Shown: piece after piece, positions 22,046 through 41,051 of the stretch
Position numbering within the stretch: the stretch's first letter is position 1
Layout: each line of letters opens with the position of its first letter
NCBI GenBank assembly: GCA_011390465.1
Contig: JAABSH010000003.1
Span: 1 to 64,000 of the forward strand
Reading direction: 5' to 3'
Length of the DNA stretch: 64,000 nucleotides
Source of the DNA: Desulfobacteraceae bacterium
GTDB lineage: Bacteria > Desulfobacterota > Desulfobacteria > Desulfobacterales > Desulfosalsimonadaceae
Translations under genes and position numbers: made by a program
The notes under the pieces: model-generated
Told to the model about the DNA's origin: nothing
Seen by the model: only the letters and a program-made list of their open reading frames with translations
The model's database searches: none

Positions 22046-22135
<90 letters not shown>

Positions 22136-23488: not shown

Positions 23489-25519
23489 TTACTCCACCCC
23501 CAGCGCCTTAAACGCAGCATCCACCGGATCGGAATAAAAACTGGTCTGGAATTTGGCAAATAGCTCTCCGGGGATTGTCTGGATGTCGCCGACATTGCTC
23601 ATGGGGATAAGAAGCCGTTTGGCGCCGGAGTCGAAGGCCACCTGAAGGGTTTCGGCCAGGTTTGTTGAGTTGACAATGGTTCCGCCAAGGCTCATGTCGC
23701 CCAGAATCACCATCTGGCTTTGAATCGGCTTGCCCATGAGTCCGGAACAAAATGAAATAAAGCTGCACAGGGTCAAAGCGGTGGCGGCCCCGGTATTGTG
23801 GATTTCAACGATATGCAGGTGATAATCATGATCACCCACCTTGCTCATTGAGCTGACCCGGCCAATATTGGCTTTAAAATAATCAAAAGCGATCTTTATG
23901 GCTTCTTTTGTCTTTGTATTTGAACCAGATCCGGAAATCGAAAGTTTTCCGTTGCCGCCGGTCACCTGAAGCTCTAGTCGATAGAGTCCAAGGTGCTCAG
24001 ATGTGCCCAGTGTCACCGTATGCATGGTCCCCGGATTCATCGGCCCTTCAGGGATCAAAGATCCGCCGCCTTGCTCCAGTACGCTGACAAATTTTTCTTC
24101 CAAAGTTTCATTGTCAATATAACTGAAATGGACATCATAAAATTCCATGCCACCTATTTTTTTTAATTGTTCCTTTACACGACGCCGGCTTTCAAGGGCA
24201 TATACAAAGCAGCGTTCCACCACATCCTTGTCAAATTCACCATGCGGATATAAAAGCTTCAGCAATCCTGAAACCGTCTTACGAACAGCAATAACATCCC
24301 GCTGGTTCAGGTTGTTGCCGATTTTATAATACTGATCAATGGCATCCGTAAAACTGCGCTTTCGCATCTCCCGCAAAAACTCCGCCAGAAAATCCACAAT
24401 CAGGCCATACTGATTGGTCAAAAACTCCGGTCGCATTTTAGGTATTTCCCAGCCCGGCAGATAGGCATGCATGCGGTCAAAAAACGCAGAATCAATCATT
24501 TCTTCGGGAAACGGCGCAAACAGGTGCCCGGTTTTTACCAGCACATCCACGCTTTGATTGATGTTGCCCACAAATACCATGGCAGCATTGGCGTTAATGA
24601 CATCGCGACCCCTGGAAAATGATCCGGATGCCATAAAATCCTTCATGATCTGCACGCCGTCTTTGTCTTTAAATCTGATGCCGGCCACTTCATCAAATGC
24701 CACCACATCCCACATCCCCACCAGCCCCACCTGCCGGCTGCTCATATTGTAGAAAAGATTGGCAACCGTGGTCTGCCCTCCGGATACCAGAATGGAGTTC
24801 GGGCTGATTTCTTTATAAATGTGGCTTTTACCCGTCCCTCTGGGGCCAAGTTCACAGATATTATAATTGTTTTCAACCAGCGGAATCAGTCGCGCCAACA
24901 GATGCCATTTTACCCGGTTTTCAAAATTGGTCGGCTCCAGGCCGGTGGATCTCAGCAACACATCAAGCCACTGGTCTTCGGTAAATTCCTTTCGAGCGTC
25001 AAATACCGACTGCAAATCAAGGTTCGGCATCTGGATCGGTTTCAGCTCGGAAATAATAAACGGAGACACCCTGGCACCTTCATCATAATAATATTCAATG
25101 TTAAGAATGCACCAGATACCGCCCACCAGCAGCTTTTCATATTTTTTTATGGTTGAACTGGGAATTTCAATGCCCTTAACACCCAAATTGGATAATACCG
25201 CCTCATACTTATCCCGGTTCTCATTGAGCTTGACCGTGACCTTATCAATGATCTTGTAGTTGCCCAGTTCCTTTATCTTTGATTTTACTTTTTCCGCTTC
25301 ATCCGGGCGCACGTAATTTTCAGCAAGGATATTTTTAACCGTGACCATTCCTTCAGCGATCACTTCCTCATCATCCACCGCACAATACATGCCCAGCAGG
25401 TATTCCAGCACATACACCGGAACATTTGCGCCTTCCTTGAGCAGCTTGGTCAGATCCTTGCGCACCACACGTCCTGCAAAATGGACGTTCAGCAGTAAAT
25501 CAATATCATTTGTTTCCAT
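23489..25519 (-). CDS. brxL: BREX protein BrxL (Lon-like protease/AAA ATPase)
   Basis: 676 residues, last gene of the BREX locus. The middle holds an AAA+ module with Walker A GPRGTGKSHIY (about residues 222-232) and Walker B VAFDEVAGI. The C-terminal Lon-like domain has the Ser motif GDMSLGG (about residue 605) and a downstream Lys in GAKRLLIP. Known type I BREX needs BrxL for phage restriction in several systems; it forms DNA-binding rings. The start has AGGATT upstream. A hairpin repeat separates it from pglZ. Confidence 0.92.
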   Translation of the reverse strand: METNDIDLLLNVHFAGRVVRKDLTKLLKEGANVPVYVLEYLLGMYCAVDDEEVIAEGMVTVKNILAENYVRPDEAEKVKSKIKELGNYKIIDKVTVKLNENRDKYEAVLSNLGVKGIEIPSSTIKKYEKLLVGGIWCILNIEYYYDEGARVSPFIISELKPIQMPNLDLQSVFDARKEFTEDQWLDVLLRSTGLEPTNFENRVKWHLLARLIPLVENNYNICELGPRGTGKSHIYKEISPNSILVSGGQTTVANLFYNMSSRQVGLVGMWDVVAFDEVAGIRFKDKDGVQIMKDFMASGSFSRGRDVINANAAMVFVGNINQSVDVLVKTGHLFAPFPEEMIDSAFFDRMHAYLPGWEIPKMRPEFLTNQYGLIVDFLAEFLREMRKRSFTDAIDQYYKIGNNLNQRDVIAVRKTVSGLLKLLYPHGEFDKDVVERCFVYALESRRRVKEQLKKIGGMEFYDVHFSYIDNETLEEKFVSVLEQGGGSLIPEGPMNPGTMHTVTLGTSEHLGLYRLELQVTGGNGKLSISGSGSNTKTKEAIKIAFDYFKANIGRVSSMSKVGDHDYHLHIVEIHNTGAATALTLCSFISFCSGLMGKPIQSQMVILGDMSLGGTIVNSTNLAETLQVAFDSGAKRLLIPMSNVGDIQTIPGELFAKFQTSFYSDPVDAAFKALGVE

Positions 25520-25545: not shown

Positions 25546-25713
25546 TCTCACCGCAAAGAACAGATTAGTGTTGAATGTTGAGTGTTGAGTTGCGGTTGCG
25601 CTGCCGCGCCGTCTTTTTTAAAAAATGATCCAAATCCTTAACTCAACACTTAACATTCAACACTCAACATTTCTTTTATTTCTCTTTGCGTCCTCTGCGC
25701 CTTTGCGGTGAGA
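25546..25713. repeat. BREX junction repeat A (brxL-pglZ gap)
   Basis: Left end TCTCACCGCAAAG (25546-25558) and right end CTTTGCGGTGAGA (25701-25713) are perfect reverse complements. Inside is a second inverted pair built on GTGTTGAATGTTGAGTGTTG and CAACACTCAACATT-type words. It fills nearly the whole gap. It is the longest copy of the CACCGCAAAG repeat in this locus. Confidence 0.85.
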
Positions 25714-25714
25714 A

Positions 25715-28351
25715 TCAAAAGTCATTGGCAAACGCAATATCTATAATAATGGGAATCCGGTCATATTCCGTATCATCCACATTCCGTAATACCAGATGGT
25801 ATTCTCGTTTATTGTCATAGGTCACATTTTTTAACGCCAGTTTTACGGTCTTCTGGCGATCGTCTAATGATGCGGAGGTACTGTTAAATGTTACAGTTTC
25901 CTCGTTGCTGATCAGTTCATTGTCGTCCCGCAGGGCAATTTTTAATGTGATCGGTTTCATTCTTTCAGATACCGGTTCCGTCTGGATAAACTTATACACC
26001 GGCCGGTTGGTCACCAGTTTTTTAACTGATCCCAGAAGGGAAACCCCCACCTGACGCACTTCGGATTTTTCCAGGTGAATACCTTTCATTTCGGTTACCG
26101 TGACGACCGGCAATACGATCTCCTGCAGCATGGCCCCGCCATGAAAAAATCTGGCCCCACCGCTGAAATTAAAGCGGTTGGTTCCTTTTGGCATTAAAAA
26201 ATCCATATCTGTTTGCGTATGTGCCGTCACTGACGTATTGCCGGAAAAGGCTTTATCCGATGCGCCAAGATTCCTGCCCAGCAGAAACCGTTTATGACTT
26301 TTAATGATTTCTTTGGGGTTTGATTCCAGTTTACTCTTGTTTATGGGTGTGGGGGGCTTTTCCTGATAAATAAACCCGTGGTCCGCGGTAATAATGACTT
26401 TTGTGCCGTTTAAGCTGTTGATGATGAAACTAACCAGCGCATAGAGATCATTGATGGCTTTTCGAACCGCATCAAAAGTATTGCTTTCAGACACCGCTTT
26501 ATCACCCACTGCGTCAATCTGATCATGATAGATGTAAATCACCCGATGGGGCTTCACAAATTCCCGGCCTTTATCTTTGCTCATGGATAAGAGTGCATCC
26601 GCTTTGATCGCTGTTCCTTCATATTGGCTTAAAACAGCGGCGCGTTGTTCTGTTGATCCGGCAGGCTTTCCATCAATTAAGACATCCGCATTGGCGCTGT
26701 CTTTTATTTCAATGGTTTTGTGCGGCAATAAGCTGGCCATTCCCAGCGCCGTGTAACTGGGCAGCACCCCCAGCATAGGCTCAATTGCAGCTTTTAAACG
26801 ATATTTCCCATTAATCGTCCGATTCAGTTCTTCGGCTGCTTCAAACCGGAAGGCATCGCTGATGATCACAAACAAACGACTTCTGGCAGATTCTTTCAAA
26901 GTGGGCTGGATATACCGGTCAAAAAAATCATATTGATTGGAAATTCCGGAAAGCCGCCATCTGTCAAACAGGTTATCTTTCAGTGCAGCGTCTAAGAAGT
27001 CCCCCCATTTTAAGCACAGCTGATCCATGAACCATCCGCTGTAGCAGTCCTCTACGGTTTCACGGAGCGACTTTAAAACATCCCACCCGGCAACATCCGC
27101 TTTGTCCGCCAGTTCATGAAATATCCGGTAATGCTGGTCAAACAGATACAGTTCATTGACATATGCGGAAAACATATCCTGAGCTGCGGGATAGCTGAAC
27201 CCGGCATCATACTTTTTTCTTAACTCAAACAAACAAATGGCATTTTCAAGGGCATGATAAACGGTTTTATAAAGGTTGGACTGGTCAGCTTCCCCGAAAA
27301 CAGTGGTGGCCCAGTATCCGTCCAATCTTGTTTTGATGGCCTGCCGTATTTCTTTAAATCCGTTTTCCTGAAATTTGATGATCTGATCCCGCATGGCACT
27401 GATAATCCGGCGTTCCACTGCCGCAAATGTCATCACGTCAATCAGCGATTCTTTGTCATAGCCCACTAGCAGATCATCGATTTTGAGCTTGCTGCCGAAA
27501 TACTGTGAAACAATATTATAATTTCTAAAATGCCCGGTATGGCTGCGCCATTGGGACAGAAACACCGACGCATTCATAGAAACAGATGGGCTATGGATAA
27601 CAAAATGGGAAAGGGATGCCGGAAGGTCCGCTTTTATGTTGTTTGAAAAGTCTGTTACAAATATCCGTATCAGGAAATCAGTAAGATTTGTGGAATCTTC
27701 ATTCACGTATCCGAATGTTTGCGCCAGCATTTTCCAGAAAAACGGCATCAGCTCCAGTTTTTCAATTTCCATCCAGATTTTCGATGGGGCGTTTGACGGG
27801 TCGGCTATATCGAATTTCCCGTCAACGCATAAAGAATCAAACAGTTTCATCAAAATTGAAAACGGTTCCGCCTGGTCTGACCGGGCAATCACCGCCAGCA
27901 TTTTCAGGTCAATATCATCTTCCGTGTCATGGGGTTGAATCCATTTTTTCAACCGGTTGAGCCGATCCTGGCTGCGGAAAAAAGCCTTCCGGCGTTTGAT
28001 GTAAGGATGAAGGCTCTGGTTTTCCAGGTTCAGTTCTTTAAGGATGATGGATGCGTTATCCGCATGAAACGTATGACTGTACAACCGGATATCAAACAAC
28101 CAGTCCGCCTCCGGCGCTGGTTCGTGCCAGGGGGCGTAGAGGATAAATTTGTCCTCGGGATTTTCAAATTCAAGTTTGATTTTCAGCTCAAGCGCGCCAT
28201 GTTCATCCAGACGCAGCAGTTCGGCATTGTCTAAAGAAATGGAAGACAGGGCTTCATCAAACTCTTTGTCTCCATCATACCAGAAGATGATGCGCTTATT
28301 TTTTTCAGAAAATATCTGATTTAATGTGTCTGATATCTGTTTGGTGTTCAT
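25715..28351 (-). CDS. pglZ: BREX phosphatase-fold protein PglZ
   Basis: 878 residues, with the alkaline-phosphatase-like PglZ domain in the second half: a metal-site ISDAFRFEAAEEL, followed by ITADHGFIYQE (about residue 655). The N-terminal part is helical and specific to BREX type 1 PglZ. Essential in characterised BREX systems, with unknown chemistry. The probable ribosome site GGTGAGA before ATG is supplied by the end of the neighbouring hairpin repeat. Confidence 0.93.
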   Translation of the reverse strand: MNTKQISDTLNQIFSEKNKRIIFWYDGDKEFDEALSSISLDNAELLRLDEHGALELKIKLEFENPEDKFILYAPWHEPAPEADWLFDIRLYSHTFHADNASIILKELNLENQSLHPYIKRRKAFFRSQDRLNRLKKWIQPHDTEDDIDLKMLAVIARSDQAEPFSILMKLFDSLCVDGKFDIADPSNAPSKIWMEIEKLELMPFFWKMLAQTFGYVNEDSTNLTDFLIRIFVTDFSNNIKADLPASLSHFVIHSPSVSMNASVFLSQWRSHTGHFRNYNIVSQYFGSKLKIDDLLVGYDKESLIDVMTFAAVERRIISAMRDQIIKFQENGFKEIRQAIKTRLDGYWATTVFGEADQSNLYKTVYHALENAICLFELRKKYDAGFSYPAAQDMFSAYVNELYLFDQHYRIFHELADKADVAGWDVLKSLRETVEDCYSGWFMDQLCLKWGDFLDAALKDNLFDRWRLSGISNQYDFFDRYIQPTLKESARSRLFVIISDAFRFEAAEELNRTINGKYRLKAAIEPMLGVLPSYTALGMASLLPHKTIEIKDSANADVLIDGKPAGSTEQRAAVLSQYEGTAIKADALLSMSKDKGREFVKPHRVIYIYHDQIDAVGDKAVSESNTFDAVRKAINDLYALVSFIINSLNGTKVIITADHGFIYQEKPPTPINKSKLESNPKEIIKSHKRFLLGRNLGASDKAFSGNTSVTAHTQTDMDFLMPKGTNRFNFSGGARFFHGGAMLQEIVLPVVTVTEMKGIHLEKSEVRQVGVSLLGSVKKLVTNRPVYKFIQTEPVSERMKPITLKIALRDDNELISNEETVTFNSTSASLDDRQKTVKLALKNVTYDNKREYHLVLRNVDDTEYDRIPIIIDIAFANDF

Positions 28352-28358
28352 AAATTTG

Positions 28359-28462
28359 TCTCACCGCAAAGGCGCAAAGAGCGCAAAGAACAGATTAATT
28401 TTTTTAGTGTTGAATGTTGAGTGTTGAGTGTTGAATTGTGGTTGCGCTGCCGAACTGTCTTT
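28359..28462. repeat. BREX junction repeat B, half copy
   Basis: Begins TCTCACCGCAAAGGCGCAAAG and continues through the same GTTGAATGTTGAGTG and GGTTGCGCTGCCG words as the left half of repeat A, but the right half is missing. On the minus strand its end lies directly before the pglZ start. Confidence 0.8.
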
Positions 28463-28527
28463 AGCTCAGGCTTCGCCTGTCTTTTCATGATATACATAGA
28501 GATCAGGTTTTGCCGGCCGGGTCCATT

Positions 28528-28713
28528 TTACCATTTTTCAATTTCTTTCTTAAGATCATCAATGGATGTCACGTCCCCTCGGTCAGCGGCTTGCCTGCCC
28601 TTTCTGATCTTGTCGATGACATAAAGACGATACATAATTTCTTCCATATCGGCCTGCTCCGGCATTTTTGCAATCGCGTCAATGGCTTCCTGCTTTATGG
28701 TTTGCATTTTCAT
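28528..28713 (-). CDS. Small antitoxin-like protein
   Basis: A 61-residue, highly charged, helical protein (QTIKQEAIDAIAKMP... ending DDLKKEIEKW). The shape resembles small antitoxins with no folded DNA-binding domain visible, in which a helical N-terminus is followed by a toxin-wrapping tail. AAGGAA precedes the start. No toxin gene is adjacent: the neighbours are repeats B and C, then pglZ and the AlbA_2 gene. It may be an orphan antitoxin, or a remnant of a toxin-antitoxin pair. Family assignment is by general appearance only. Confidence 0.5.
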   Translation of the reverse strand: MKMQTIKQEAIDAIAKMPEQADMEEIMYRLYVIDKIRKGRQAADRGDVTSIDDLKKEIEKW

Positions 28714-28747
28714 TTCCTTATTTCAGTTGTTGGGTAAAATATATTTA

Positions 28748-28842
28748 TCTCACCGCAAAGGCGCAAAGAGCGCAAAGAAAAAAAAGAAATGAAAAGCGCT
28801 TCGCGCAAAAAAAACTTTGCGAACTTTGCGCCTTTGCGGTGA
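28748..28842. repeat. BREX junction repeat C
   Basis: Left arm TCTCACCGCAAAGGCGCAAAG and right arm CTTTGCGCCTTTGCGGTGA form a long imperfect hairpin, with GCGCTTCGCGC nested at the centre. It lies between the antitoxin-like gene and the AlbA_2 gene. Confidence 0.85.
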
Positions 28843-28911
28843 ATATTTTTTCATTTTTCCCCGGTTATCGCTTTCTTTTCCACCTATGGTTTGCATACTT
28901 ATATCCTCTTT

Positions 28912-30390
28912 TCACTTTCCAGTTTTTCCCTCTATTTCTTTCACAAGCCGGTATTTCTGAAAACGGCTTTTGGGTTTTTCGGGGATGGTATGAGCGATTA
29001 CCCCTTCCTTGACCAGTTTACTTAAAATCTTTTTAAGTTGACCTGAAACCCGTTTTTGACCGAAATATTGAGAAATTTCAGTCGCTGCAAGTGATCGTTT
29101 ATCAAGTAGATTCACAATCTGTTCACTTAATGACTTGGACTGCGACTTGGACTGCGACTTGGACTGTGACTCGGGCTGTGACTCGGGCTGTGACTCGGGC
29201 TGCCGGTCGGATTTATCTCGTAGAGGGGTGAAGGTCAGCACAACAGAACCCGCCCGCACTTGCCATTGAGGCACAGGATTTCCGTTTTCCCGGCACCAGT
29301 CAATGATGTTTAATGTTCCGGTCCCCCATTTTTCGATAATGCCTGCCCGGTAAAACACACTGGCGATGATGGGGTTCCAGGGCCTGGACTCATGGGGGCG
29401 GGTCAATGCTTTGGGTGTGATGCCGAAATGCAAATCACCGGGATTGATGACTTCCATCCGGTCATCATAAACGGCAACAGAAGTGGATGCTCCGGGCACG
29501 GCATAGTCCCGGTGGCAAAACGCATTGGCCAGCGCTTCGCGGAAGGCCCGGGGATGGTAAAGGGGTCGATCCTCGCGTTTGAATCGGTCCGGATACACCT
29601 TCCCGGCGATGGGAATGTGGTCCTTAAAAAAGGCTTCGGCCCGTTGCAGCAGGCTGAACGCATGCCCCCAATATTGCCGGTTATCGGAAAAATCGGAAAG
29701 ACGATCAAGCCCCCGGAATCTCGCCAGTTGAATTAAACACTGGGGATAAAGCGATTCCAGTTTCGGGCTTTTTCCGTATAGCACCACTGCCGCGTTGGTA
29801 AGAATGCCGTCAACAATCAATCCAAGTCCCGTCAGGATCGATTTTGTATCGGTTTTCCGGGGGCGTGTCATTCGGCCGGCGTCAATGGCATTGGTCAAGG
29901 TCAGGTGGATCTCATCCTGATCCAGGTCTTTTATGGAAATCCCATCTGCTGCGGGCTCATTTTCCCAGCGGCGGGTGGCATGCAGGCGTTCAACCACTCT
30001 GCGCTCATACTCTGCTTTCGGCATGATACTTGTTGTAGGGCCGCTGCGAATATAAGGGCGGCCATCATAGGTATAAAGCCCGGCACCGCCCGGCACTCTC
30101 AAAACGATCACGGATTTTCCATTTTCCAATGCCACGGTTTCTATATCCGGAAATGCGGGCGGGTCAATGCGCCCTAGTTCAGCAGACACATCAGCCATGG
30201 TTTTGGCAGTCACATCCTGGCCAAGAACATTGCCTTTATCTGATATGCCGAAAAGGACAAATCCGCCCAGGCCGTTCAACATGGCGCAAACGGTTTTCAT
30301 GGCAGCCGTGCGCTGGCCGGTGGAGGTTTTAAATTCGAGTTGATCGGATTCGCCGGAGGAGACGAGTTTTTTGAGTTCTTGAAGGTTCAT
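28912..30390 (-). CDS. AlbA_2 / ATP-binding putative transcriptional regulator in BREX locus
   Basis: 492 residues. The N-terminal AlbA_2 (Schlafen-type) domain starts near residue 15 (SDQLEFKTSTG, then GGFVLFGISDKG). A HATPase_c_4-like module follows (EALANAFCHRDYA, INPGDL, KWGTGTLNII, about 285-370), then a repeat-rich hinge and a C-terminal winged helix (LAATEISQYFGQKRVSGQLKKIL). The hinge is encoded by six 12-base tandem repeats at 29131-29202, three of each of two types, translating as (S-Q-P-E)3 then (S-Q-S-K)3-like runs. Such proteins occur in defence islands and as regulators. Here it lies inside the BREX operon between pglX and pglZ. Its role there is unknown. Confidence 0.8.
   Translation of the reverse strand: MNLQELKKLVSSGESDQLEFKTSTGQRTAAMKTVCAMLNGLGGFVLFGISDKGNVLGQDVTAKTMADVSAELGRIDPPAFPDIETVALENGKSVIVLRVPGGAGLYTYDGRPYIRSGPTTSIMPKAEYERRVVERLHATRRWENEPAADGISIKDLDQDEIHLTLTNAIDAGRMTRPRKTDTKSILTGLGLIVDGILTNAAVVLYGKSPKLESLYPQCLIQLARFRGLDRLSDFSDNRQYWGHAFSLLQRAEAFFKDHIPIAGKVYPDRFKREDRPLYHPRAFREALANAFCHRDYAVPGASTSVAVYDDRMEVINPGDLHFGITPKALTRPHESRPWNPIIASVFYRAGIIEKWGTGTLNIIDWCRENGNPVPQWQVRAGSVVLTFTPLRDKSDRQPESQPESQPESQSKSQSKSQSKSLSEQIVNLLDKRSLAATEISQYFGQKRVSGQLKKILSKLVKEGVIAHTIPEKPKSRFQKYRLVKEIEGKTGK
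29131..29202. repeat. Six in-frame 12-bp tandem repeats inside the AlbA_2 gene
   Basis: Three units of the type YGACTTGGACTG, then three of TGACTCGGGCTG, exactly 72 bases. Because the unit is a multiple of three, slippage changes linker length without breaking the frame. The two sub-families suggest two rounds of amplification. Confidence 0.9.
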
Positions 30391-30396
30391 TTTATA

Positions 30397-30870
30397 TTAT
30401 TTGATTAAAAGACCAATTATAAGCCCTATAATTCCAGTAACCCATTTGAGATAGTGTTCACGAGTCTTATAGACCCATTCCAATTCCTTGTATATTGCTT
30501 CTCTTAACTGGGTAAGTCCCTTATCCGTTAAATACCATAATTTGAGTTCAGGACTTTCTTCCCAGCATCCAGTTGAATTTCCTTCTTTGTCAAATATTGA
30601 TGGCACAAAAACCCTTAACCGTCTGGCTTTTCTGATCAACTGGTTTGTATAATGTTCATCTAATTGCTCATAAAGAACTGAAATTTCAAATTTATGATCA
30701 AACTCCAAACGTTGAAGTTTTAACCGATCCTTGTCTTCTGATGCTTTTAAAACTGCTATCTCTTTACGAAAAATCAAATCCGTTAAATGGGCCTGCCATG
30801 TGAGGCGCAGTCCCTTTGGAATGGGAATTTTGTTTAGAGCTCTGCATATCAAGGTTAACGGTAATTTCAT
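30397..30870 (-). CDS. Tail-anchored unknown protein 1 in BREX locus
   Basis: 157 residues, no recognised family. The N-terminus is basic, the middle (about 40-75) is charged and helical, a winged-helix-like segment follows (LKLWYLTDKGLTQLREAI), and the C-terminus is one hydrophobic helix (WVTGIIGLIIGLLIK). That predicts a cytoplasmic protein held to the inner membrane by its tail. It follows the other tail-anchored gene by 149 bases and precedes the AlbA_2 gene by only six bases. No strong ribosome site is seen. A role in abortive defence at the membrane is possible but speculative. Confidence 0.6.
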   Translation of the reverse strand: MKLPLTLICRALNKIPIPKGLRLTWQAHLTDLIFRKEIAVLKASEDKDRLKLQRLEFDHKFEISVLYEQLDEHYTNQLIRKARRLRVFVPSIFDKEGNSTGCWEESPELKLWYLTDKGLTQLREAIYKELEWVYKTREHYLKWVTGIIGLIIGLLIK

Positions 30871-31019
30871 TTTAATTGCCTGTACATCTTTGATTTCATA
30901 CGATTTTTTTTATTGGGAGCTGTAACGGCATCATATTCTTAACTGTTTCAATGTCTGATACTCTGTTACTGCAAGCTGTAGCCCAATCCAATCCAAAGCA
31001 AAACAATTGTTAAGGCAGA

Positions 31020-31514
31020 TTAACTCGCAGCCACACTGATGATTAACCCGATGACCGCAAGTACCGCCGATATCCACCAGCGCCTCTCCTGACCGTGTTT
31101 GATTTCCTGTTCATGTAGATTTATCGCAATGTCAACAAGCTTCGATATTTCTTCAGTGCTCAAAGGCGGCCGAGAGAGTCGTTTTTTTCCGCTTTCGTTC
31201 TCTTGCTCAGTCAACCTTAAAGCCTCTTCCCGCGATACAGAACGATTTGTATATGTGTCGTACTTTCGTTCGCGACTGCGGCGCCACACAGCAGAGACAT
31301 CGCCACCTTGTATCGTAAAAAACTCAGGATGTTGCTTGAATATGGTTTCCCAATTAGTGGCAGATACTGGATCGCGTCCGAGCCTTTTTTCCCATTTTTG
31401 TAGTTGTCTACTGGCACACCGATAAGACCCTAATACCTGGATTGCTGCGATCAAGTCAGCCAACCGGTTGGGATTACGTATATAAGGAGAGGTACTGCTA
31501 TAAAACATTTGCAT
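31020..31514 (-). CDS. Tail-anchored unknown protein 2 in BREX locus
   Basis: 164 residues, no recognised family. The N-terminal half has a helix-turn-helix-like region (LADLIAAIQVLGSYRCASRQ) and a GGDVSAVWRRSRERKYDTY block; a charged helix follows, and a single C-terminal membrane helix (WWISAVLAVIGLIISVAAS) ends the protein. The start lies 11 bases past the pglX stop, with AGGAG between, so it is translated from the pglX message. It shares architecture, but not evident sequence, with the next gene at 30397-30870. Confidence 0.65.
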   Translation of the reverse strand: MQMFYSSTSPYIRNPNRLADLIAAIQVLGSYRCASRQLQKWEKRLGRDPVSATNWETIFKQHPEFFTIQGGDVSAVWRRSRERKYDTYTNRSVSREEALRLTEQENESGKKRLSRPPLSTEEISKLVDIAINLHEQEIKHGQERRWWISAVLAVIGLIISVAAS

Positions 31515-31525
31515 AAGTGCTCCTG

Positions 31526-34500
31526 TTATTCCCCTGTTACTGCTTTGGTTCCTGCCAGCAGGTTGCCGAATTTGCCGTAATTGACTTTCACGCCGTCATC
31601 AAGATCCAGGGCTATTTTCATGTCTGCGTAATGACGGAGTTCATCATCAAATTTAGAGAGCTCGATCTGTTTCTTTTTCAGCACTTCGATTTCTTTCTGA
31701 TATTTGCGCTGGTCAGAGGCGGATGTGGCAGCATCTTTTTCAGATGTAAGAAACTCGATTCGTGCCCGGATGTTGCCCTGAAGCGGGGTGACGTATGCGC
31801 TGCGCATACGGGACAAGGTGGTTTCATTGTACCGGTGCAGATACACCAGGCATTCAAAGGCTTTTTGCTTGCCGCTGGAAAACAGCCAGTAAATGGGGCG
31901 TTTCTTATAGGTTCTGAGATGATCTTTAAAAAAGGTGGTACTCAGATACCGACGGATGGTATCAATGGGCGCCTCGTTTTTCTTGGGGTTTAAGCTGTCA
32001 GCAACAAATTTGAGGTTTTCATCCAGATGTTCCGCCGGCCAGGCGACTTTGATGAACTCCACAAACCGGTTGGCGGCATCGTCGGGGAACCAGGCGAGAT
32101 CCATGATGGGGATGATGCCGTCATCATCTGCCGGAAAAGCTTTGTATTTGGAAGCATCAAATCCAATGTTACCACTATGAGCATAAATCAAACCGGGTTC
32201 ATCCAGGCTGTATCGGCCCATCATGCAGCCGATGGCATAGGAAATCAGTTCCTTGATGGTGTCGGTCAGAAGCAATGTTTCCAGCTCTTCTTCGCTCTTG
32301 TCCCCGTTGTATCGGTAATGGGGATTGCAGGTCAGGGTGATTTCAGAAAGCGAAACATCCGGTGTGAGTTCACCTTGCAGGCCATAAGCTTCTATAAAAA
32401 TACGGTTATTTTCTTCTTCGAGGTTTTTCATTTTCACGGTTATGGCCAGCCAGTGTGCGCTGATAGTTTCGTATGTGGCTTTCAGCGTCGGCTGGTGATG
32501 GTCGGGGTGGAGAAGCGGAAGATAGGAGAAGTCCCAAGAGATTTCAAAAGCGTCCCAATTTTCTTTTGAAATAGTGATTAGCTCATAAGTGTTATGGATA
32601 CATTTTTTATTAAAAAAGTTTTTAGGAAGTGGAAAATTAAGTACATCTCCGACATTTAGAGCTAATGTCGGATTTAACATTTTTAAGAGATATTGAGCTA
32701 CAACGCTGTTTAGTACTGAAAGAATGAAATATAAATTGTCATCGTTGTGATTTTTTAAAAAAATGGTTGGGGATACTGAGCTATATTGTGCGTCATCAGT
32801 TTTTAATCTAAAGGAAAATTCTTCCCGGGACGTTACAATCGTCCATGTAATACCTGTTTTATTCCAAAAAGTTTTTTTTGTTAACCCTCCAAATTTTAAA
32901 TAATGCTCTTTAGCTTCTTGAGACCAATCAATTAAATATTCTTTATTACCATAATGTTTTCTATAACTTCCGCCTTTAAATATAATACTCCATTTTTTAT
33001 AATCCCCAATTTTTTTTGAGTCTACTTCCCACAAAAATCGCAAGTATTTATCATCCCCATGAGTTTTGCATCGACCACCAGAAATTAATTCGTTAGATAG
33101 TTTGTCTTCAGAAAAAATTTTGACAACTTTATCATTTAACCAATATACAATAGGACTGCTTGGAATATATTTAAACTTTTCAGATGTTGATACTGATAGC
33201 TTGTCATTTTGAACTGGGAATTCAATAGGGACATTCATCCTATTCAAATCTTTGTAATCTACATATGAAAAATTGCTTTTATGGTTCTTCAAGCAATTTT
33301 TTCTCCACACAGTTGAGCAAGTTCCAAAAGCTATCCCCATAACCATATTTGACATATGTACAAGTTTTTCTATTGTATATAACTCTATAAGTTTTTCTCT
33401 TAATTTTTGATATGAAGAGAGAAACATCCAGCTTTGCATGGTTACCATCGACATATACATATTTTTTTTTACAAAACTGAATCCACGTTCAATAAACATA
33501 GAGAATAGATCGGATTTAGAATTTGGAAATATTTTTTTGCCAAACTGCTTTAATTCTAAATTCATAAACCCAGTTCCCATATACGGAGGATTCGTCACCA
33601 CGCAATCATACTTTCTCCCTAAAATCCCTGCCTGTTTCAAAAGGGTTTGCAGACGTTCCACATTCCCCTGACCAAACACACCGGCCATGTGTTCCTGAAT
33701 AGCGGTTTCAAATTGATCAGCCTTTTCTGCCAAGTTTTCCGGCACGGTAATCAGGGACCCAAAGGTTTTAGCATGTTCAAACAGCGTAATCAGTTCGTTC
33801 AACCGATCTCTGGTTTCCGGATCATCTTTGAAAAAAATATCAATATTCTTAATATCAGCCGCATCGCTTTGCTGAATTGACATAATATTGAGACAGAGGG
33901 CATCCCGGCCCAGAATACGGCGGTCATCAGCCCGGGCTTTCATCAACACGGCAAAACTCGCCAGTTGGGCGGCCCGGTCATCAATATCCAGGCCGAAAAG
34001 GTTTTTTGAAAGGATCAGTTTGGGGATCTCCCGGGTCCGGTAGCCCCTTTCCAGATAGATTTCTTTAAACACATCATAGGCTTCCACCAGGATATGACCG
34101 GAACCGCAGGCAGGGTCCAGAAATGTGATGTTTTCAGGATCAAGTTCTCTGGGCGTAATCTCGTCAAGTTGTTTCTGAACGTCCGGTTCCTGTTCTGCCG
34201 GCTCAATGTAATAGTCCATTTTATCCCGCAGAGAAGATTCCGGATAGGTGGCCAGCCACATGCGGCCCAGGGTGTTCTGGGCCATGTATTTGACGATCCA
34301 GTTGGGCGTAAAGAGCTGGGTGGCTGCCGGGATGTCTTCGCTTTTGACCACTTTGCCGATGACTTCATCTTTTTTCTCGGAAATATAAAACTGATAGAGC
34401 CAGCCGATGATTTCCACATCATCCCAATCAGATTCGTCACTATCTGAGACTAGCTTGCGTATGAGAGAATCAGAATGCAGCAGGTTATCCGGCAGGAGCA

Positions 34501-35041
34501 GTTCGGTTTCATCATCGATTTTTTCAAACAAAAACGGCATGGCCTGATGCAGGGCATTGCACTGGGCAACAATCAGCATGCGGTAAAGTTCATTATCTTT
34601 ATTGCCTGCCAGACGAAGCTCAATCACTTTCTCTTTTTTAAGCCCGGGCAAATCAATATCTGCCGCATGTTCCAGAATTTCCGGCACGTCAGATTCTGTT
34701 TCAGCTCTGGTGGAATTACTTAACACCCGGTATCCATGGTCCAGATAATCATGGAGTTCCATATAGCGAAGCGCCACAAACCGGTTGAACCATGAGTAGG
34801 CAGCATTGCGCATGGTCATTTCAAAGCCTTTTTTTTCAACCCTCTCAACCAGCCGCTCCCGCAGGTTTCCTTCCTTTTTAGGAATGGCCCGGTCGCCTAT
34901 AATTGCTATATCTCCCGCAAATTCAATGGGCTCGATTTTTTTATCGCTGAATATTCCGTAATAATTGGCCCGCTCAGTAACGGCCTTTAAGAAATCCCGG
35001 CGTGCGGCAATGGCGTAGGATTTGATTCTTGATGTGTTCAT
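31526..35041 (-). CDS. pglX: BREX adenine-specific DNA methyltransferase PglX
   Basis: 1171 residues. SAM-binding motif I DPACGSGHILVEA (about residue 303) and the catalytic NPPYMGTGFM (about 481) define an N6-adenine methyltransferase. It marks host DNA so that BREX does not attack it. The stretch coded by about 32570-33560 (residues about 495-825) is visibly more A/T-rich than the rest and corresponds to the target-recognition part. AAGGAA precedes the start. Intact length for the family. Confidence 0.94.
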   Translation of the reverse strand: MNTSRIKSYAIAARRDFLKAVTERANYYGIFSDKKIEPIEFAGDIAIIGDRAIPKKEGNLRERLVERVEKKGFEMTMRNAAYSWFNRFVALRYMELHDYLDHGYRVLSNSTRAETESDVPEILEHAADIDLPGLKKEKVIELRLAGNKDNELYRMLIVAQCNALHQAMPFLFEKIDDETELLLPDNLLHSDSLIRKLVSDSDESDWDDVEIIGWLYQFYISEKKDEVIGKVVKSEDIPAATQLFTPNWIVKYMAQNTLGRMWLATYPESSLRDKMDYYIEPAEQEPDVQKQLDEITPRELDPENITFLDPACGSGHILVEAYDVFKEIYLERGYRTREIPKLILSKNLFGLDIDDRAAQLASFAVLMKARADDRRILGRDALCLNIMSIQQSDAADIKNIDIFFKDDPETRDRLNELITLFEHAKTFGSLITVPENLAEKADQFETAIQEHMAGVFGQGNVERLQTLLKQAGILGRKYDCVVTNPPYMGTGFMNLELKQFGKKIFPNSKSDLFSMFIERGFSFVKKNMYMSMVTMQSWMFLSSYQKLREKLIELYTIEKLVHMSNMVMGIAFGTCSTVWRKNCLKNHKSNFSYVDYKDLNRMNVPIEFPVQNDKLSVSTSEKFKYIPSSPIVYWLNDKVVKIFSEDKLSNELISGGRCKTHGDDKYLRFLWEVDSKKIGDYKKWSIIFKGGSYRKHYGNKEYLIDWSQEAKEHYLKFGGLTKKTFWNKTGITWTIVTSREEFSFRLKTDDAQYSSVSPTIFLKNHNDDNLYFILSVLNSVVAQYLLKMLNPTLALNVGDVLNFPLPKNFFNKKCIHNTYELITISKENWDAFEISWDFSYLPLLHPDHHQPTLKATYETISAHWLAITVKMKNLEEENNRIFIEAYGLQGELTPDVSLSEITLTCNPHYRYNGDKSEEELETLLLTDTIKELISYAIGCMMGRYSLDEPGLIYAHSGNIGFDASKYKAFPADDDGIIPIMDLAWFPDDAANRFVEFIKVAWPAEHLDENLKFVADSLNPKKNEAPIDTIRRYLSTTFFKDHLRTYKKRPIYWLFSSGKQKAFECLVYLHRYNETTLSRMRSAYVTPLQGNIRARIEFLTSEKDAATSASDQRKYQKEIEVLKKKQIELSKFDDELRHYADMKIALDLDDGVKVNYGKFGNLLAGTKAVTGE

Positions 35042-35058
35042 TTGTTTCCTTATTGTTT

Positions 35059-35200
35059 TTCACCGCAAAGGCGCAAAGAGCGCAAAGTAAAAAACTAATT
35101 GCGCTTCGCGCTTCTGCGAAGCAGAAGAACCCGTTTTTGCGCGCAGCGCTTATCTTCTTTCTTTTTCTTTTCTTTGCGTCCTCTGCGTCTTTGCGGTGAA
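35059..35200. repeat. BREX junction repeat D
   Basis: Left end TTCACCGCAAAGGCGCAAAG and right end CTTTGCGTCCTCTGCGTCTT plus TGCGGTGAA, with GCGCTTCGCGC and TCTGCGAAGCAGA palindromes inside. It fills the gap between pglX and the GxxExxY gene. Confidence 0.85.
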
Positions 35201-35210
35201 TTTTTCTGGA

Positions 35211-35594
35211 TTACAAACCGTTTACAATCCGCTTTATCCCATTCTTCAATACCGGAACATTGAAATTGATCAACATTCCAAGTTTCAGGCCCGATAGTTT
35301 AAGATACGTCAAAAGCTGGGCTTCATGGATTGGTTCAATTGTCTGAACCGCTTTCAGTTCAAGAACAACCATATTTTCGACCAGCACATCCAGCCGGTAC
35401 CCACAATCCAACTTCACCTTTTTATATTCCACCGGCAGGGGCTTCTGGCATTGAAAATTAATTTTACGAAGTGAAAGCTCATGACACAGGCATTCTTCAT
35501 AAGCAGATTCAAGGAGACCCGGCCCCAGGTTTTTATGTACTTCAATAGCAGCGCCGATAATTTCCCTGGATAGCTTATCTTCTTTTTTTATCAT
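35211..35594 (-). CDS. GxxExxY-family protein (PD-(D/E)xK-like)
   Basis: 127 residues. The family-naming motif is GLLESAYE; a restriction-endonuclease-like core is suggested by YRLDVLV...VVLELKA (Asp, Glu-x-Lys) and the end [11 protein letters not shown]. Members are widespread, often adjacent to mobile DNA, and their activity is not established. It sits between brxC and pglX, flanked on both sides by hairpin repeats, as if inserted as a cassette. Confidence 0.85.
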
Positions 35595-35603
35595 TTCTTA
35601 TTT

Positions 35604-35677
35604 TCTCACTGCGAAAGTGTGTTTTGCGCGTAGCGCTTTTCTTTTTTTCTTTGCGTCCTCTGCGTCTTTGCGGTGAA
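35604..35677. repeat. BREX junction repeat E (degenerate)
   Basis: Left end TCTCACTGCGAAAG is diverged; right end CTTTGCGTCCTCTGCGTCTT plus TGCGGTGAA is identical to repeat D. It lies between the GxxExxY gene and brxC. Confidence 0.7.
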
Positions 35678-35699
35678 TATTTTTTTGGCGGCTCTGCGG

Positions 35700-38600
35700 T
35701 TAGATTATTTTCACTCGAATATCATTCTTCACCGCATCCAGCAGCACATCCTTCACGCTGTCCACATATTCATTAACGTCTGCTTCTGTTTCCAGGTATA
35801 CCTTATTTACAAATGATGTTGGATCTACTGTTCTGGTTTTTTTGGGGTCAACTTTTGGTTGAAACTCATTTTCAATTTTATCGAGTGAATCTTCAAATAA
35901 ATCATGGGTTTCTGATGTTGTATAAGATATTTCCGGAATGCTGTATTCTGCCTGAATCTTTTTCTTTACCTGCTGAAAAGGATGCAAAATTTCACCCCGA
36001 AGATTCTCTCCGGCTTTGTATTTATCCAGCTCTGCCTTTAACTGGTCAATTTTTGCATCCACTTTGCTTTCCGCTGCTGCCTGCTGTTTTTGCAGCAATT
36101 CTTTGTTTACAGTATCCACCCGTAAAATCAATGACTCCACTTCCTTGATCATGGCATAAGGGTGAGGCGCTTTTTTAATCTCAACCATCCGTTTTAAGGC
36201 GCTGGCGGCATCCACGTTTTTATCAAGGGCGGATTTATTGGGCATAAAGCGATTTAGAGAACTTCTGAGACTTTCCCATGTGGATCGCTGATTGGTATAA
36301 AAATCCGTAACGGTCTGGATATCTTCTTCCGCATCCAACAGGTCCTCTTTAGCCGCATTAAACGCTTTGATACATTCATAGGCATCATGTATTTTTGTGA
36401 TCCTGACAATGATTGCCAGGCAGTCATCCATTTCCTGCTTTCCAGGGTAATTGCCGGTATCTGCCAGAGGTTTGAATTTTTTAAGGGTTGAAGACCATTT
36501 TTCAAGGCTGTCTGCAACATGCTGTCTGAGTTTTTCCTTACTGTCCGGGGGGATGGCTCCAAACAGGTCTTTGGCCAGCTTTTTGGCATTGTTCAGTGTT
36601 TTCTGGTCAATGATCGGGGTTTCAATAATTTTAACTGTTTTCCACTGATGGGTTTTGGAAAGCGGGGCAATGGCATCTTTGGGGGTGATTTTTGTTTCAT
36701 CCACCACCAGTTTGATATTGCCGGCCATAAACAGTTTGGCCACCAGGATGACCACCTGAAAATCTCCCCATCCATAGGGTCTTTTGGTAAAGTGTTTGAC
36801 CAGCTCATCTAAAACGACCGGATGGTTGATGGCGGTTTTACCATGAATATAGTTTTTGACCTCTTTTAGATCCGGTTTAATATTTGGGGGCTCTTTTTCC
36901 TTAAGATCCAGAGACAGTTGATGTTGGGCCACATCATCGGACATCAGAATCTGTTTTATTTCTTTTAGCGGATCACTGGCAACATAGGTGAGATACGAAA
37001 ACTTGCTGAAGATATTTTTGACCAAATAATCAAATCCCTCATTGATCGCCTTTGTGGTTGTCTGGCCGTCAATATCAAGCTTTTTACCCAGGGCATAAAA
37101 CTCCGCCCGTGCCATCAGGTCATCCAGCAACTCAATGAGCCGATCTTTTCTTTCCCGGTTTTCATCGGCCCGGTCCCGAATGATCTGTTTTAAGCTGGCA
37201 GAGGCGGATGCGTCACTTTTATCTTGAATGTATTTTTTCACCTGAAGGTACAGCCGGATTTCATCAATCAGGGTTTTATCGTCATCCAGTTTGACGATCA
37301 GGTTGCCGTCTTTGCCGGAGCTGTATAAATTGCATTTTGCCGGAATAAAGAGCGTGTATTCATCATGCAGCGGGCTGATAATTTCAAGGCCCAGATCATC
37401 CTGGAGTTCTTTTCCCCAGAAACGGTCATCACAGATCCGGTTAAATGCATAATCCCGATTATACGCCATGTATTTATGCTTGGTTTTACCTTTTAAAATA
37501 TCATCAAAAATAATATCTCCCATCAGTTCCGTTTCAGCGGTAGATGATATTTCAACATTTTTGATTTCCCGGGAGACTTCCCGCTCCTCATTGGTAAGGA
37601 AAAAATACAGATCCCCGTTGCGGTTGATAAGGGTTTCTTTTTCAAGGCGCTGCAAAGATGCTTCAATTTTTCTTTTGAGATTGATTCTGTCCGCGTCCAC
37701 CTGATCGATACAGAGGGTTACCAGGTTTTCCACGTTGGGCTTGATGATGTCCACATAACGAATCAGAAACAGGGCCTGCAACACATTGATATCAAAGTCA
37801 GCCTCCAGGCCGGCATTGCCTTTTGCCTGGTCAATGCTGCGTTTAACGGACGTGTCTAAAAAGCTTTCAATACAGGGATAAAATTCATAGAGCGGCACCA
37901 GGGACCCGATTTCTTTATCTGAAATATTGACCGCCGAAGACTGGAAGGCATCAAGCATGGACCGTTCACCACGGCTTAAATGCAGGCCTGTGGCGCCGGC
38001 TTTGCGGATGGATTCGAAAATTTTCTGTACCAGTTGAAAATGATACGGAGTAAAAGGGTATGTTTTAACGAAATCGTTTTTAGATGAATAATTTTTCAAC
38101 GTGCTGGTGTCATAAGAGAAGCTTAGCTGATTTTTCAGGATATCGCCTTTTTCATCAAACAGCTTTTCAAGCAGCGGAACCGCCTCTTTATCCTTGTCAA
38201 GCAGCCGGGCATGGATGACTTCATCGGTATTGGCGCTGGATAAAGACAGGCGGGTATTAAAACGCCCCTGAATTTTTGAAAAATCATTTGCCTTGGATGC
38301 AACAAGGCCATCGATGACTTTTTCAATATCTTCCTGAGAGGTGACCAGAACCCAGGCTCTTCCATTACAAAGCCTGCCCAGATCTTCAACAATCGTCTGG
38401 AGATTTAACATCAGATGGGTGTCCTGGCCGATAAACTGCCCGATTTCATCCACCAGAAAGACAATGCGATGGTCTTTTGATCTGGAATCCAGGTATTCGT
38501 TGACCCGCTTAGCAAAGTTTTCAACTGATACAATCAGGTTTTTTTCTGAATGCTCAAAATATTCGGCTGCGGCTTCCCTGCTTTTGCCCAAGACATCGGA

Positions 38601-39272
38601 AAGTGCTTCCACAATTTCGTCTTGCAGCAGACTGTAGGCATCCCGCTCATCTTCCCATTTTGCGCCGTATATTTTCTCGAACTTTTCTTTAAAGGCTTCA
38701 TACTTTCCTTTTTTACTCAGGTAACGTTCGATCTCCGCCAGGTGGAGAGACTGGCTGCAAAATCCCAGTTTTTCATTAAACACCCGCCAGAACACAGAGA
38801 GCAGGGCGGTTCTTCCGTCATTGGCATCTGCACGACTGTCTATGTTAAAGAGAATAACGTCCGTGTCATCACCGACAACTCGTTTAATGTCGCCAAACAG
38901 CATGGGGTCTTTAATTTTGGCTTTAAAAAAATCAAGCGCACGTTTTGCTTCTTCTGTTTCCGGAGAAACTGTTTCTCTGTTACCCAGCAGGTATGACAGT
39001 ATTTTGAGGAAGTGGGATTTACCGGACCCGAAAAAACCGGAGATCCATACAGCCATCCGGCCTGTGATTGCCGGGTCTGTTTTCATGCCGTATTTTGCGT
39101 CGGTGGCCGCAAGATAGGCTTTGATAAATTCCCTGAGATACTGATCCAGTTCACGGGTAATAACAAATTCATCAAGCTCCTGCCATATAACTGATTCATC
39201 GAGTTGTTCAGCCTTAACAACCCCATTGATGGTGCGGGAAATGGGTTTTTTGAAAATGTTTTTGATTTGCAT
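35700..39272 (-). CDS. brxC: BREX ATPase BrxC
   Basis: 1190 residues. P-loop GFFGSGKSHFLK at about residue 79, a Walker B-like IVFLVDEIGQFIG near 270, and long helical C-terminal regions with coiled coil (LQKQQAAAESKVDAKIDQLK). This is the large BREX ATPase required for defence and for methylation in the systems studied. AGGAAG precedes the ATG. Length is as expected. Confidence 0.94.
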   Translation of the reverse strand: MQIKNIFKKPISRTINGVVKAEQLDESVIWQELDEFVITRELDQYLREFIKAYLAATDAKYGMKTDPAITGRMAVWISGFFGSGKSHFLKILSYLLGNRETVSPETEEAKRALDFFKAKIKDPMLFGDIKRVVGDDTDVILFNIDSRADANDGRTALLSVFWRVFNEKLGFCSQSLHLAEIERYLSKKGKYEAFKEKFEKIYGAKWEDERDAYSLLQDEIVEALSDVLGKSREAAAEYFEHSEKNLIVSVENFAKRVNEYLDSRSKDHRIVFLVDEIGQFIGQDTHLMLNLQTIVEDLGRLCNGRAWVLVTSQEDIEKVIDGLVASKANDFSKIQGRFNTRLSLSSANTDEVIHARLLDKDKEAVPLLEKLFDEKGDILKNQLSFSYDTSTLKNYSSKNDFVKTYPFTPYHFQLVQKIFESIRKAGATGLHLSRGERSMLDAFQSSAVNISDKEIGSLVPLYEFYPCIESFLDTSVKRSIDQAKGNAGLEADFDINVLQALFLIRYVDIIKPNVENLVTLCIDQVDADRINLKRKIEASLQRLEKETLINRNGDLYFFLTNEEREVSREIKNVEISSTAETELMGDIIFDDILKGKTKHKYMAYNRDYAFNRICDDRFWGKELQDDLGLEIISPLHDEYTLFIPAKCNLYSSGKDGNLIVKLDDDKTLIDEIRLYLQVKKYIQDKSDASASASLKQIIRDRADENRERKDRLIELLDDLMARAEFYALGKKLDIDGQTTTKAINEGFDYLVKNIFSKFSYLTYVASDPLKEIKQILMSDDVAQHQLSLDLKEKEPPNIKPDLKEVKNYIHGKTAINHPVVLDELVKHFTKRPYGWGDFQVVILVAKLFMAGNIKLVVDETKITPKDAIAPLSKTHQWKTVKIIETPIIDQKTLNNAKKLAKDLFGAIPPDSKEKLRQHVADSLEKWSSTLKKFKPLADTGNYPGKQEMDDCLAIIVRITKIHDAYECIKAFNAAKEDLLDAEEDIQTVTDFYTNQRSTWESLRSSLNRFMPNKSALDKNVDAASALKRMVEIKKAPHPYAMIKEVESLILRVDTVNKELLQKQQAAAESKVDAKIDQLKAELDKYKAGENLRGEILHPFQQVKKKIQAEYSIPEISYTTSETHDLFEDSLDKIENEFQPKVDPKKTRTVDPTSFVNKVYLETEADVNEYVDSVKDVLLDAVKNDIRVKII

Positions 39273-39295
39273 TGAAAAACTTCCTTTTTTATTTT

Positions 39296-39412
39296 TTCAC
39301 CGCAAAGGCGCAAAGATCGCAAAGGGTATTTTTCCGCTTCGCGGAAGGACCATTTTTTTGCGCGAAGCGCTATTTTTTCTTTTCTTTGCGCCCTCTGCGT
39401 CTTTGCGGTGAA
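39296..39412. repeat. BREX junction repeat F
   Basis: TTCACCGCAAAGGCGCAAAG at the left, CTTTGCGCCCTCTGCGTCTT plus TGCGGTGAA at the right, with CGCTTCGCG and GCGCGAAGCGC inside. It fills the gap between brxC and brxB. Confidence 0.85.
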
Positions 39413-39421
39413 TTTTTTTTA

Positions 39422-39994
39422 TTACACCACCAGCTGAAACGCCCGGTAATAGTTCGCTTCTTTCAATTTGCCGAAAAGCCTTAGTCCCTGTCCGGTATAA
39501 ATACCAGGATAAAACATCACCAAAGGCGTATCTCCCATAAGGGGATGCAGGTTATTTAAAAGATTGTGACTTCGAAGCAAGGGATAAGCATTGCCCACCC
39601 CTGAAACCAGGATAAGGTCCTGATGTTCCGGATCAGCAGCATCAACAAAGGCTTTGGCGATATTTTTAGGATCTAACGGGCTTTTGATTTTTTTTAAAAG
39701 TTCCTGATCCCCTTTTTGTTTCTGCATGGTCAGCACACGATCCAGCAGTTTACGGGATTTCAGGTAATCAAGAATCAGTTCGAATAAATTGATATGTTTA
39801 AATTTGAGAGACGGTTTTCGTTTGGGAAGCTGGCGGAGCACAAATTGGATATGATCTCTCATTTCCAGTTCATGTTCTGGCGGGTAATCAAAGATATAAA
39901 ATCCGATTTCCTTACCAAGACCTTTATTTTGCAGTAATTCATCAGATGTTAGACGATCAAGAATATTGTCAAGTCGAGTTTTAAAGGTGTTCAT
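39422..39994 (-). CDS. brxB: BREX protein BrxB
   Basis: 190 residues, matching the DUF1788 BrxB family in size and in the conserved stretches FYIFDYPPEHE, LVSGVGNAYPLLRSH and VMFYPGIYTGQGLRLFG. It is required for BREX in studied systems; mechanism unclear. It starts 15 bases after brxA, so the two are translated together. Confidence 0.92.
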   Translation of the reverse strand: MNTFKTRLDNILDRLTSDELLQNKGLGKEIGFYIFDYPPEHELEMRDHIQFVLRQLPKRKPSLKFKHINLFELILDYLKSRKLLDRVLTMQKQKGDQELLKKIKSPLDPKNIAKAFVDAADPEHQDLILVSGVGNAYPLLRSHNLLNNLHPLMGDTPLVMFYPGIYTGQGLRLFGKLKEANYYRAFQLVV

Positions 39995-40009: not shown

Positions 40010-40618
40010 TTACTGGGTTATATTCATACAGCGTAAGACGTATTCCTCCGAATTTTTCACAAGGTACTTTTTCACTTCAGGTATAATGGAAACCGGCAGC
40101 AGTTTGAGGGAACGGGTCGTATCAATGTATTTGGATTCTGCAAGGATGCGAAAGACAACCTGCTTCAGCTTTGCCATGGTCGTGTCCGTCCAGGTGCCGA
40201 TGGCCGGTTCTTTTTGAATGCAGGTTTCGATAAAAGCGTTCCAGTCTGTTGTCGAAATGTGGGTCGCAAAGGTTTGCCAGTAGCGCCGTATCACCTGATC
40301 CATAAAATCGCCAAGAATATGGCTGTGTTTGATTGTAGCCGCAAGAATTGCCTGGGTGGCCGCATCATTGGAGCCCTGGTCGATCATTTCCCAGAGTGCC
40401 GGCGTCATCAGGGACAATCGATTTCTGATGAGTTTTGCCTGGCGTTTTGCCGCCGCAGGTGATCGTTTCTGAAGCACATTATCAATGACAATCGCCTGAT
40501 GCCATGTGTCTTCATCGGCATTGGCCATGAGCAGGCGGGCGATATGCCGGCTTTCGGGGATAAGGAGCGATCCGGCAACAATTTCGCCGTTATAGATTTG
40601 CAATGGGTCTTCTGTCAT
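40010..40618 (-). CDS. brxA: BREX protein BrxA
   Basis: 202 residues, DUF1819/BrxA family: early YNGEIVAGSLLIPESRHIARLL, helical middle, and late EVKKYLVKNSEEYVLRCM. BrxA is a small DNA-binding protein of the BREX core. It is the first gene of the locus and faces the 345-base gap that should hold the promoter. Confidence 0.92.
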   Translation of the reverse strand: MTEDPLQIYNGEIVAGSLLIPESRHIARLLMANADEDTWHQAIVIDNVLQKRSPAAAKRQAKLIRNRLSLMTPALWEMIDQGSNDAATQAILAATIKHSHILGDFMDQVIRRYWQTFATHISTTDWNAFIETCIQKEPAIGTWTDTTMAKLKQVVFRILAESKYIDTTRSLKLLPVSIIPEVKKYLVKNSEEYVLRCMNITQ

Positions 40619-40963: not shown

Positions 40964-41051
40964 TGGCGGAGAGGGTGGGATTTGAACCCACGATCCCGTG
41001 AGGGATACCGCTTTTCGAGAGCGGCGCCTTCAGCCGCTCGGCCACCTCTCC
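40964..41051 (-). tRNA. tRNA-Ser, anticodon CGA
   Basis: An 88-base gene with encoded CCA. Acceptor GGAGAGG/CCTCTCC, T arm GTGGG-TTCAAAT-CCCAC, anticodon loop CTCTCGAAAAG with CGA (reads UCG), and a long variable arm (GTATCCCTCACGGGAT). Its 3' end faces the start of the BREX locus. Confidence 0.95.

Follow-up and report, generated by a model that had tools for sequence, protein, structure and literature searches.

A widespread, unnamed family of small, predicted winged-helix proteins with a C-terminal membrane helix recurs beside DNA-targeting defence genes

T1, a 164-aa protein encoded directly downstream of pglX in a BREX operon of a Desulfobacteraceae bacterium, may be regarded, judging from its homologs, as the founding member of a widespread, unnamed family. 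Genes of this family recur inside or directly behind the genes of several defence systems, i.e. in the position of embedded accessory genes of defence operons. Our tentative reading, to which we give slightly less than an even chance, is that T1 is a membrane-tethered accessory protein (an adaptor or a sensor) that binds nucleic acids or a partner and serves DNA-targeting defences. We infer its membrane location, its nucleic-acid binding and its adaptor or sensor role.

T1 and a second small gene, T2 (157 aa), are located within a complete type I BREX operon of the window (the whole stretch of DNA analysed, 64,000 nt). Matches to Pfam and PADLOC gave the gene order brxA, brxB, brxC, a gene for a GxxExxY-type PD-(D/E)XK protein, pglX, T1, T2, a gene for a Schlafen/AlbA_2-HATPase-wHTH protein, pglZ and brxL (Table 1). 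The product of the Schlafen gene is likely a backup effector, by analogy with the BREX backup RNase of the same architecture, since Schlafen-kinase-wHTH proteins have been described as a backup effector of BREX (PMC12839542). The G+C contents of T1 (46.7%), T2 (36.1%) and the Schlafen gene (51.8%) are unequal, and the three inserts are therefore probably of separate history. T1 and T2 are each present in a single copy in the window's own genome.

Table 1. Features of the BREX operon in the window, including those predicted within T1 and T2
Feature	Position (nt)	Strand	Basis
brxA	40010..40618	-	Pfam + PADLOC
brxB	39422..39994	-	Pfam + PADLOC
brxC	35700..39272	-	PADLOC
GxxExxY-type PD-(D/E)XK_3 protein	35211..35594	-	Pfam
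pglX, BREX type I methyltransferase	31526..35041	-	PADLOC PglX, 1426 bits
AGGAG, putative ribosome-binding site of T1, just past the pglX stop, 5 nt before the ATG	31520..31524	-	Sequence
T1, 164 aa: predicted winged-helix body, stalk helix and C-terminal membrane helix	31020..31514	-	
Predicted winged-helix domain of T1, residues 10-80, motifs RLADVIAAIQ and HPEFF	31275..31487	-	pLDDT 97-98; invariant columns; structure comparison
Predicted C-terminal membrane helix of T1, residues 146-163, preceded by RRWW	31026..31079	-	Hydropathy; part of helix 120-163
T2, 157 aa: predicted helical body with beta hairpin and C-terminal membrane helix	30397..30870	-	
Predicted C-terminal membrane helix of T2, residues 141-156	30403..30450	-	Hydropathy 2.2; helix 116-156 in model, pLDDT about 77
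Schlafen/AlbA_2 + HATPase_c_4 + C-terminal wHTH protein	28912..30390	-	Pfam
pglZ	25715..28351	-	Pfam + PADLOC
brxL	23489..25519	-	Pfam

The first-pass annotation had described two ORFs, encoding proteins of 164 and 157 aa with one C-terminal membrane helix each, and had held both to be translated from the pglX message. Both ORFs are present exactly as it stated, and the hydropathy of T1 and T2 peaks only at the C-terminus (residues 147-163 of T1, Kyte-Doolittle 2.7 over 16 aa; residues 141-156 of T2, 2.2), in agreement with the predicted helices. The stop codon of pglX is located at 31526-31528 and the ATG of T1 at 31512-31514, 11 nt past that stop; the AGGAG reported just beyond the stop codon was also found, and T1 thus appears tightly coupled to pglX. 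The proposed shared translation holds well for T1, but T2 follows only after an AT-rich gap of 149 nt (35.6% G+C), so that its translation from the same message may at most be presumed. A terminator-like site was sought on the coding strand of this gap and none was found, and scans for sigma-70 promoters and terminators scored within the range given by shuffled sequences.

Relatives of T1 were identified at 67 loci in one-genome-per-species data and on three plasmids. They are distributed among Pseudomonadota, Bacteroidota, Nitrospirota, Deinococcota and Cyanobacteriota, with aa identities of 70% in Alcanivorax and 66% in Kangiella. Given these 67 homologous loci, T1 is a real gene and not a chance ORF. 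As the first-pass annotation had also concluded, neither small protein belongs to a named family: T1 showed no significant match in Pfam, NCBIfam or PADLOC and only matches of E >= 0.056 in PHROG, and T2 matched only phrog_19471, weakly. The 59 T1 members compared with Pfam produced scattered weak matches only, and the best match of T1 among PDB sequences (E 0.52) pointed to no family. The viral contigs and phage records searched contained neither T1 nor T2, and a DNA-level search of E. coli genomes with one T1 gene returned no match.

The AlphaFold2 model of T1 (56 sequences, pLDDT 95) contains (i) an H-E-H-H-E-E winged helix at residues 10-80 and (ii) a continuous helix at residues 120-163, the end of which is the membrane segment. 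The top neighbours of this model among PDB structures are mostly winged helices (MarR, IscR, LOTUS, Z-alpha and Cdt1; best Z 7.0), and Z scores of this size, being below 8, indicate a shared fold only, with no match standing out. The LOTUS, Z-alpha, MarR and IscR types are level at Z 5.6 to 6.3 and many unrelated winged helices fall within 1 Z, so the model assigns T1 to the winged-helix fold class and the Z scores do not tell the subfamily. Residues 10-80 resemble LOTUS (TDRD5/7), Z-alpha and MarR/IscR domains in fold, but these share no sequence relation with T1 and none of them is tail-anchored in the same manner. A comparison of the model with BFVD gave nothing below E 0.2.

From the RRWW motif that precedes the membrane segment we infer, by the positive-inside rule, that the N-terminus of T1 faces the cytosol. 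The first 90 residues have a median pI of 9.4, and such a basic body permits, without proving, the binding of nucleic acids; in some members the pI is below 6.6, and binding may therefore not be general. The residues R17, L18, W55, H62, E64, F65, F66, R78, R115, L126 and W146 are invariant in the 59 members compared, in which the HPEFF motif is mostly invariant (P63 in >90%). A hydrophobic C-terminal helix is present in 59-60 of the 61 full-length members, and a GxxxG motif in 46 of 59 tails, compared with 18 +/- 2.8 in shuffled tails, a figure uncorrected for the relatedness of the tails.

Such a tail could also be that of an effector. According to this alternative, a refinement of the membrane-disrupting effector suggested by the first-pass annotation and one that we consider rather unlikely, T1 would be a membrane effector or guard of abortive infection. 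Its winged helix would recognise phage DNA, a stalled restriction complex or an anti-restriction protein that mimics DNA, and its tail helices would form oligomers and make the membrane permeable. Lamassu acts abortively, and T1 adjoins Lamassu genes at one locus. Backup effectors embedded in BREX and R-M operons are well documented (PMC12839542, PMC11411939), and the GxxxG motif would allow oligomerisation. However, the motif is missing from the window's own T1 clade, only one transmembrane helix of about 17 residues is predicted, the invariant residues are placed in the winged helix and the stalk and not in the membrane segment, and the Schlafen gene next door to T1 and T2 already encodes a separate, RNase-type candidate effector. 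Judging from the model, a winged helix with no second transmembrane helix would fit tethered binding at least as well as membrane disruption.

The gene neighbourhoods link T1 to defence. Genes of type I R-M systems are found beside T1 at 10 loci, at 8 of which they are co-directional with it in the same gene run. HsdR is encoded directly upstream of T1 at distances of 2 nt (L034), 11 nt (L059) and 72 nt (L017) or with an overlap of 4 nt (L071); HsdS overlaps T1 by 17 nt in L024, and in L031 a PD-(D/E)XK nuclease gene that follows HsdR overlaps it by 4 nt. T1 is placed further down the R-M run in L018 and L020, and R-M genes are only nearby in L036 and L037. Other systems include (i) DISARM at three rhizobial loci, with a 4-nt overlap between DrmMI and T1 in two of them (L006 and L063), and, preceding T1, (ii) GmrSD-RAMA (54 nt, L010), (iii) LmuB of a Lamassu-type operon (11 nt, L042) and (iv) a CARF-STK-AAA (CARF-kinase) gene (16 nt, L007). 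HsdR occurs within 7 kb of T1 at 9 of 66 loci, compared with 0.4 expected (P about 2e-10) from a background density of 0.34 per Mb determined in 27 of the T1 genomes, and defence-island clustering accounts for part of this enrichment. On the tree of T1 the type I R-M label needs 7 changes, at least 2 of them forced by well-supported branches, which means that the linkage arose more than once. The recurrence near defence genes, whose lack the first-pass annotation had named as evidence against a defence role, is thus strong for T1, encompassing R-M, DISARM, GmrSD, Lamassu and CARF-kinase systems.

Several of these neighbourhoods contain unusual arrangements. In the rhizobial DISARM locus L068 (10016-11632) the T1 frame continues, with no intervening stop codon, into the next gene, encoding an XRE regulator, which may represent a fusion or a lost stop codon. 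The Lamassu-type locus L042 (6201-17028) has the order LmuA, a 171-aa protein, LmuB and T1; behind these come a 1654-aa protein, for which neither Pfam nor PADLOC gave a match, and a 528-aa gene product. In L071 (6891-12788) HsdR and T1 are followed by a GmrSD protein fused to Schlafen AlbA_2, with the GmrSD_N and Schlafen domains in one polypeptide. In Thermaceae (L048, L054 and L061) a protein of 184-198 aa is encoded directly before T1, with a gap of 2 or 6 nt or an overlap of 11 nt; the L054 and L061 proteins are mutually related, and none of the three gave a match in the libraries against which each was scanned.

The same neighbourhoods bear on the possibility that T1 is a membrane-tethered regulator of the ToxR type, whose winged helix would switch the defence operon on or off and whose anchor would respond to envelope stress. 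Apart from the predicted fold, this is suggested by the position of T1 before an XRE regulator in the rhizobial DISARM loci and by a variant (L003 and L038) with about 115 additional residues behind the transmembrane helix, including several Cys, which is possibly a periplasmic sensor part. Nearly all members lack a periplasmic domain, however, T1 accompanies very different systems, and its usual position, downstream of large enzyme genes within or at the end of the operon, is one that regulators seldom occupy. A regulatory function is therefore considered improbable.

In the preferred reading, T1, as a membrane-tethered accessory protein, would hold its basic winged helix on the cytoplasmic side of the inner membrane by means of the stalk, a continuous helix predicted to cross the membrane once and carrying, in most members, a motif for self-association. 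It would be made together with the large DNA-targeting or signalling protein of its host operon (type I R-M, DISARM, BREX, GmrSD, Lamassu or CARF-kinase). It may either (i) enrich nucleic acid, or the defence complex itself, at the membrane through which phage DNA arrives, or (ii) sense infection at the membrane and pass the signal on. A module that combines binding with anchoring could plausibly assist DNA-targeting enzymes that are separate from it. T1 would then be a portable module, taken up repeatedly by different systems and not a core part of BREX.

T1 is not a component of the BREX core, since it is absent beside pglX in the seven other pglX-bearing genomes found among 395 genomes of the phylum; the co-occurrence with pglX for which the first-pass annotation had called is not borne out (0/7). 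In this sample only one other genome carries T1, and it is outside the pglX carriers; a comparison of the 67 T1 loci with BREX core proteins yielded no match. In the nearest relative of this pglX, the gene is separated from pglZ by 62 bp with no insert, and at another BREX locus of the phylum a Schlafen gene alone occupies the interval, which identifies the pglX-pglZ interval as a slot for accessory genes. Three other BREX loci of the phylum (L088, 10130-11741; L090, 4738-6410; L091, 5488-7143) encode, just before pglX, an OLD/ABC-like ATPase (by sequence) and a 170-180-aa partner, a pair that resembles a PARIS-like module.

The existence of such a slot also allows T1 and T2 to be passengers of tolerant sites, or toxin or defence genes in their own right that insert there, in either case uncoupled from their neighbours. 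The empty interval of the nearest relative and the sharp G+C differences among the inserts are in line with this, as is the single homolog of T2, located outside any defence operon. No defence partner was recognised at about 50 of the 70 T1 loci, and several T1 copies stand alone among the short genes of integron-like arrays, which shows that T1 does not require such a partner. Repeats, several of them as in integron arrays, are found beside T1 in L012, L013, L018, L020, L021, L023, L027, L030 and L040; a strict attC motif search gave candidates only in L023, L030 and L040 and an Rfam search for attC beside T1 gave none, and given this thin attC evidence the term integron-like refers to flanking direct repeats. 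For T1, the passenger explanation is opposed by an enrichment far above background and by the fact that T1 overlaps genes for HsdR, HsdS, DrmMI or a nuclease by 4 or 17 nt in several lineages, observations that are difficult to reconcile with a gene merely carried along; overall, we give this explanation a low probability.

The placement of T1 fits that of known accessory genes embedded in defence operons, but its molecular type does not. TgvAB of type I R-M systems, and BrxU, PARIS and Schlafen RNases of BREX, are, like T1, small modules acquired repeatedly within BREX or R-M operons, often beside hsdR, hsdS or pglX; the embedded genes of type I R-M operons are known as independent or complementary defences (PMC11411939). 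These modules are nucleases or ATPase-nuclease pairs, whereas in T1 no catalytic domain was recognised and a membrane anchor is predicted. In the main text of the BREX survey (PMC12839542) the word "transmembrane" does not occur and "membrane" occurs once. That a defence can act on phage DNA at the membrane while it is being injected is shown by the membrane-bound nuclease SNIPE (PMC13190303). T1 would share with SNIPE the placing of a function directed at nucleic acids at the membrane, the entry point of phage DNA; in contrast to SNIPE, which brings a nuclease of its own and works unaided, T1, in which no nuclease was recognised, would need a partner.

The repeated linkage of T1 to mechanistically different defences across phyla suggests a shared membrane step that is unaccounted for in restriction biology. 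A bolder proposal, which we consider unlikely, casts T1 as a universal plug-in, exchanged among restriction systems, that would dock either the incoming DNA or the complexes which translocate or methylate DNA to the place where DNA comes in through the membrane. If this were true, type I R-M, DISARM and BREX would be spatially coupled to phage DNA injection. As a single small gene that can be deleted, T1 offers a handle on whether these three systems act or signal where phage DNA enters, and with it the libraries used to annotate defence genes gain a family that they had lacked.

T2 is rare and unrelated to T1. It has one homolog in the phylum sample (31% identity, E 4.6e-7), and its C-terminal half (residues 74-155 only) weakly matches phrog_19471 (E 5.7e-5), to which the homolog, in L004, is more similar (E 9.5e-11); the T2 described here is not in a phage. 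T2 is a real gene because of this homolog in another genome and the PHROG match. The homolog is located beside what we take to be VapBC-like genes between ftsZ and pckA, the gene names being read from the sequences. The two small genes, presented as a pair by the first-pass annotation, are never joined at the T1 loci or in the phylum sample, and the idea of a linked T1-T2 pair was rejected. At the single homolog locus no defence linkage of T2 was seen. The model of T2 (two sequences, pLDDT 75) gave weak PDB matches (best E 1.4) and contains a possible winged-helix-like wing. T2 is treated here as a separate accessory or passenger gene in the same pglX-pglZ slot, with the passenger reading favoured.

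The BREX block also contains a 19-bp repeat, CTCTGCGTCTTTGCGGTGA, with 9 copies in the window, compared with 0.01 expected. The repeat is found in 25693-39411, often as inverted pairs, at the junctions brxL/pglZ, pglZ/Schlafen, pglX/GxxExxY, GxxExxY/brxC and brxC/brxB; it is absent around T1 and T2, and only 5 more copies (<=2 mismatches) are present in the 3.9-Mb genome. The block is flanked by two tRNA-Ser genes on the same strand, with anticodons GGA and CGA, at 22046-22135 and 40964-41051, which suggests a tRNA-linked island.
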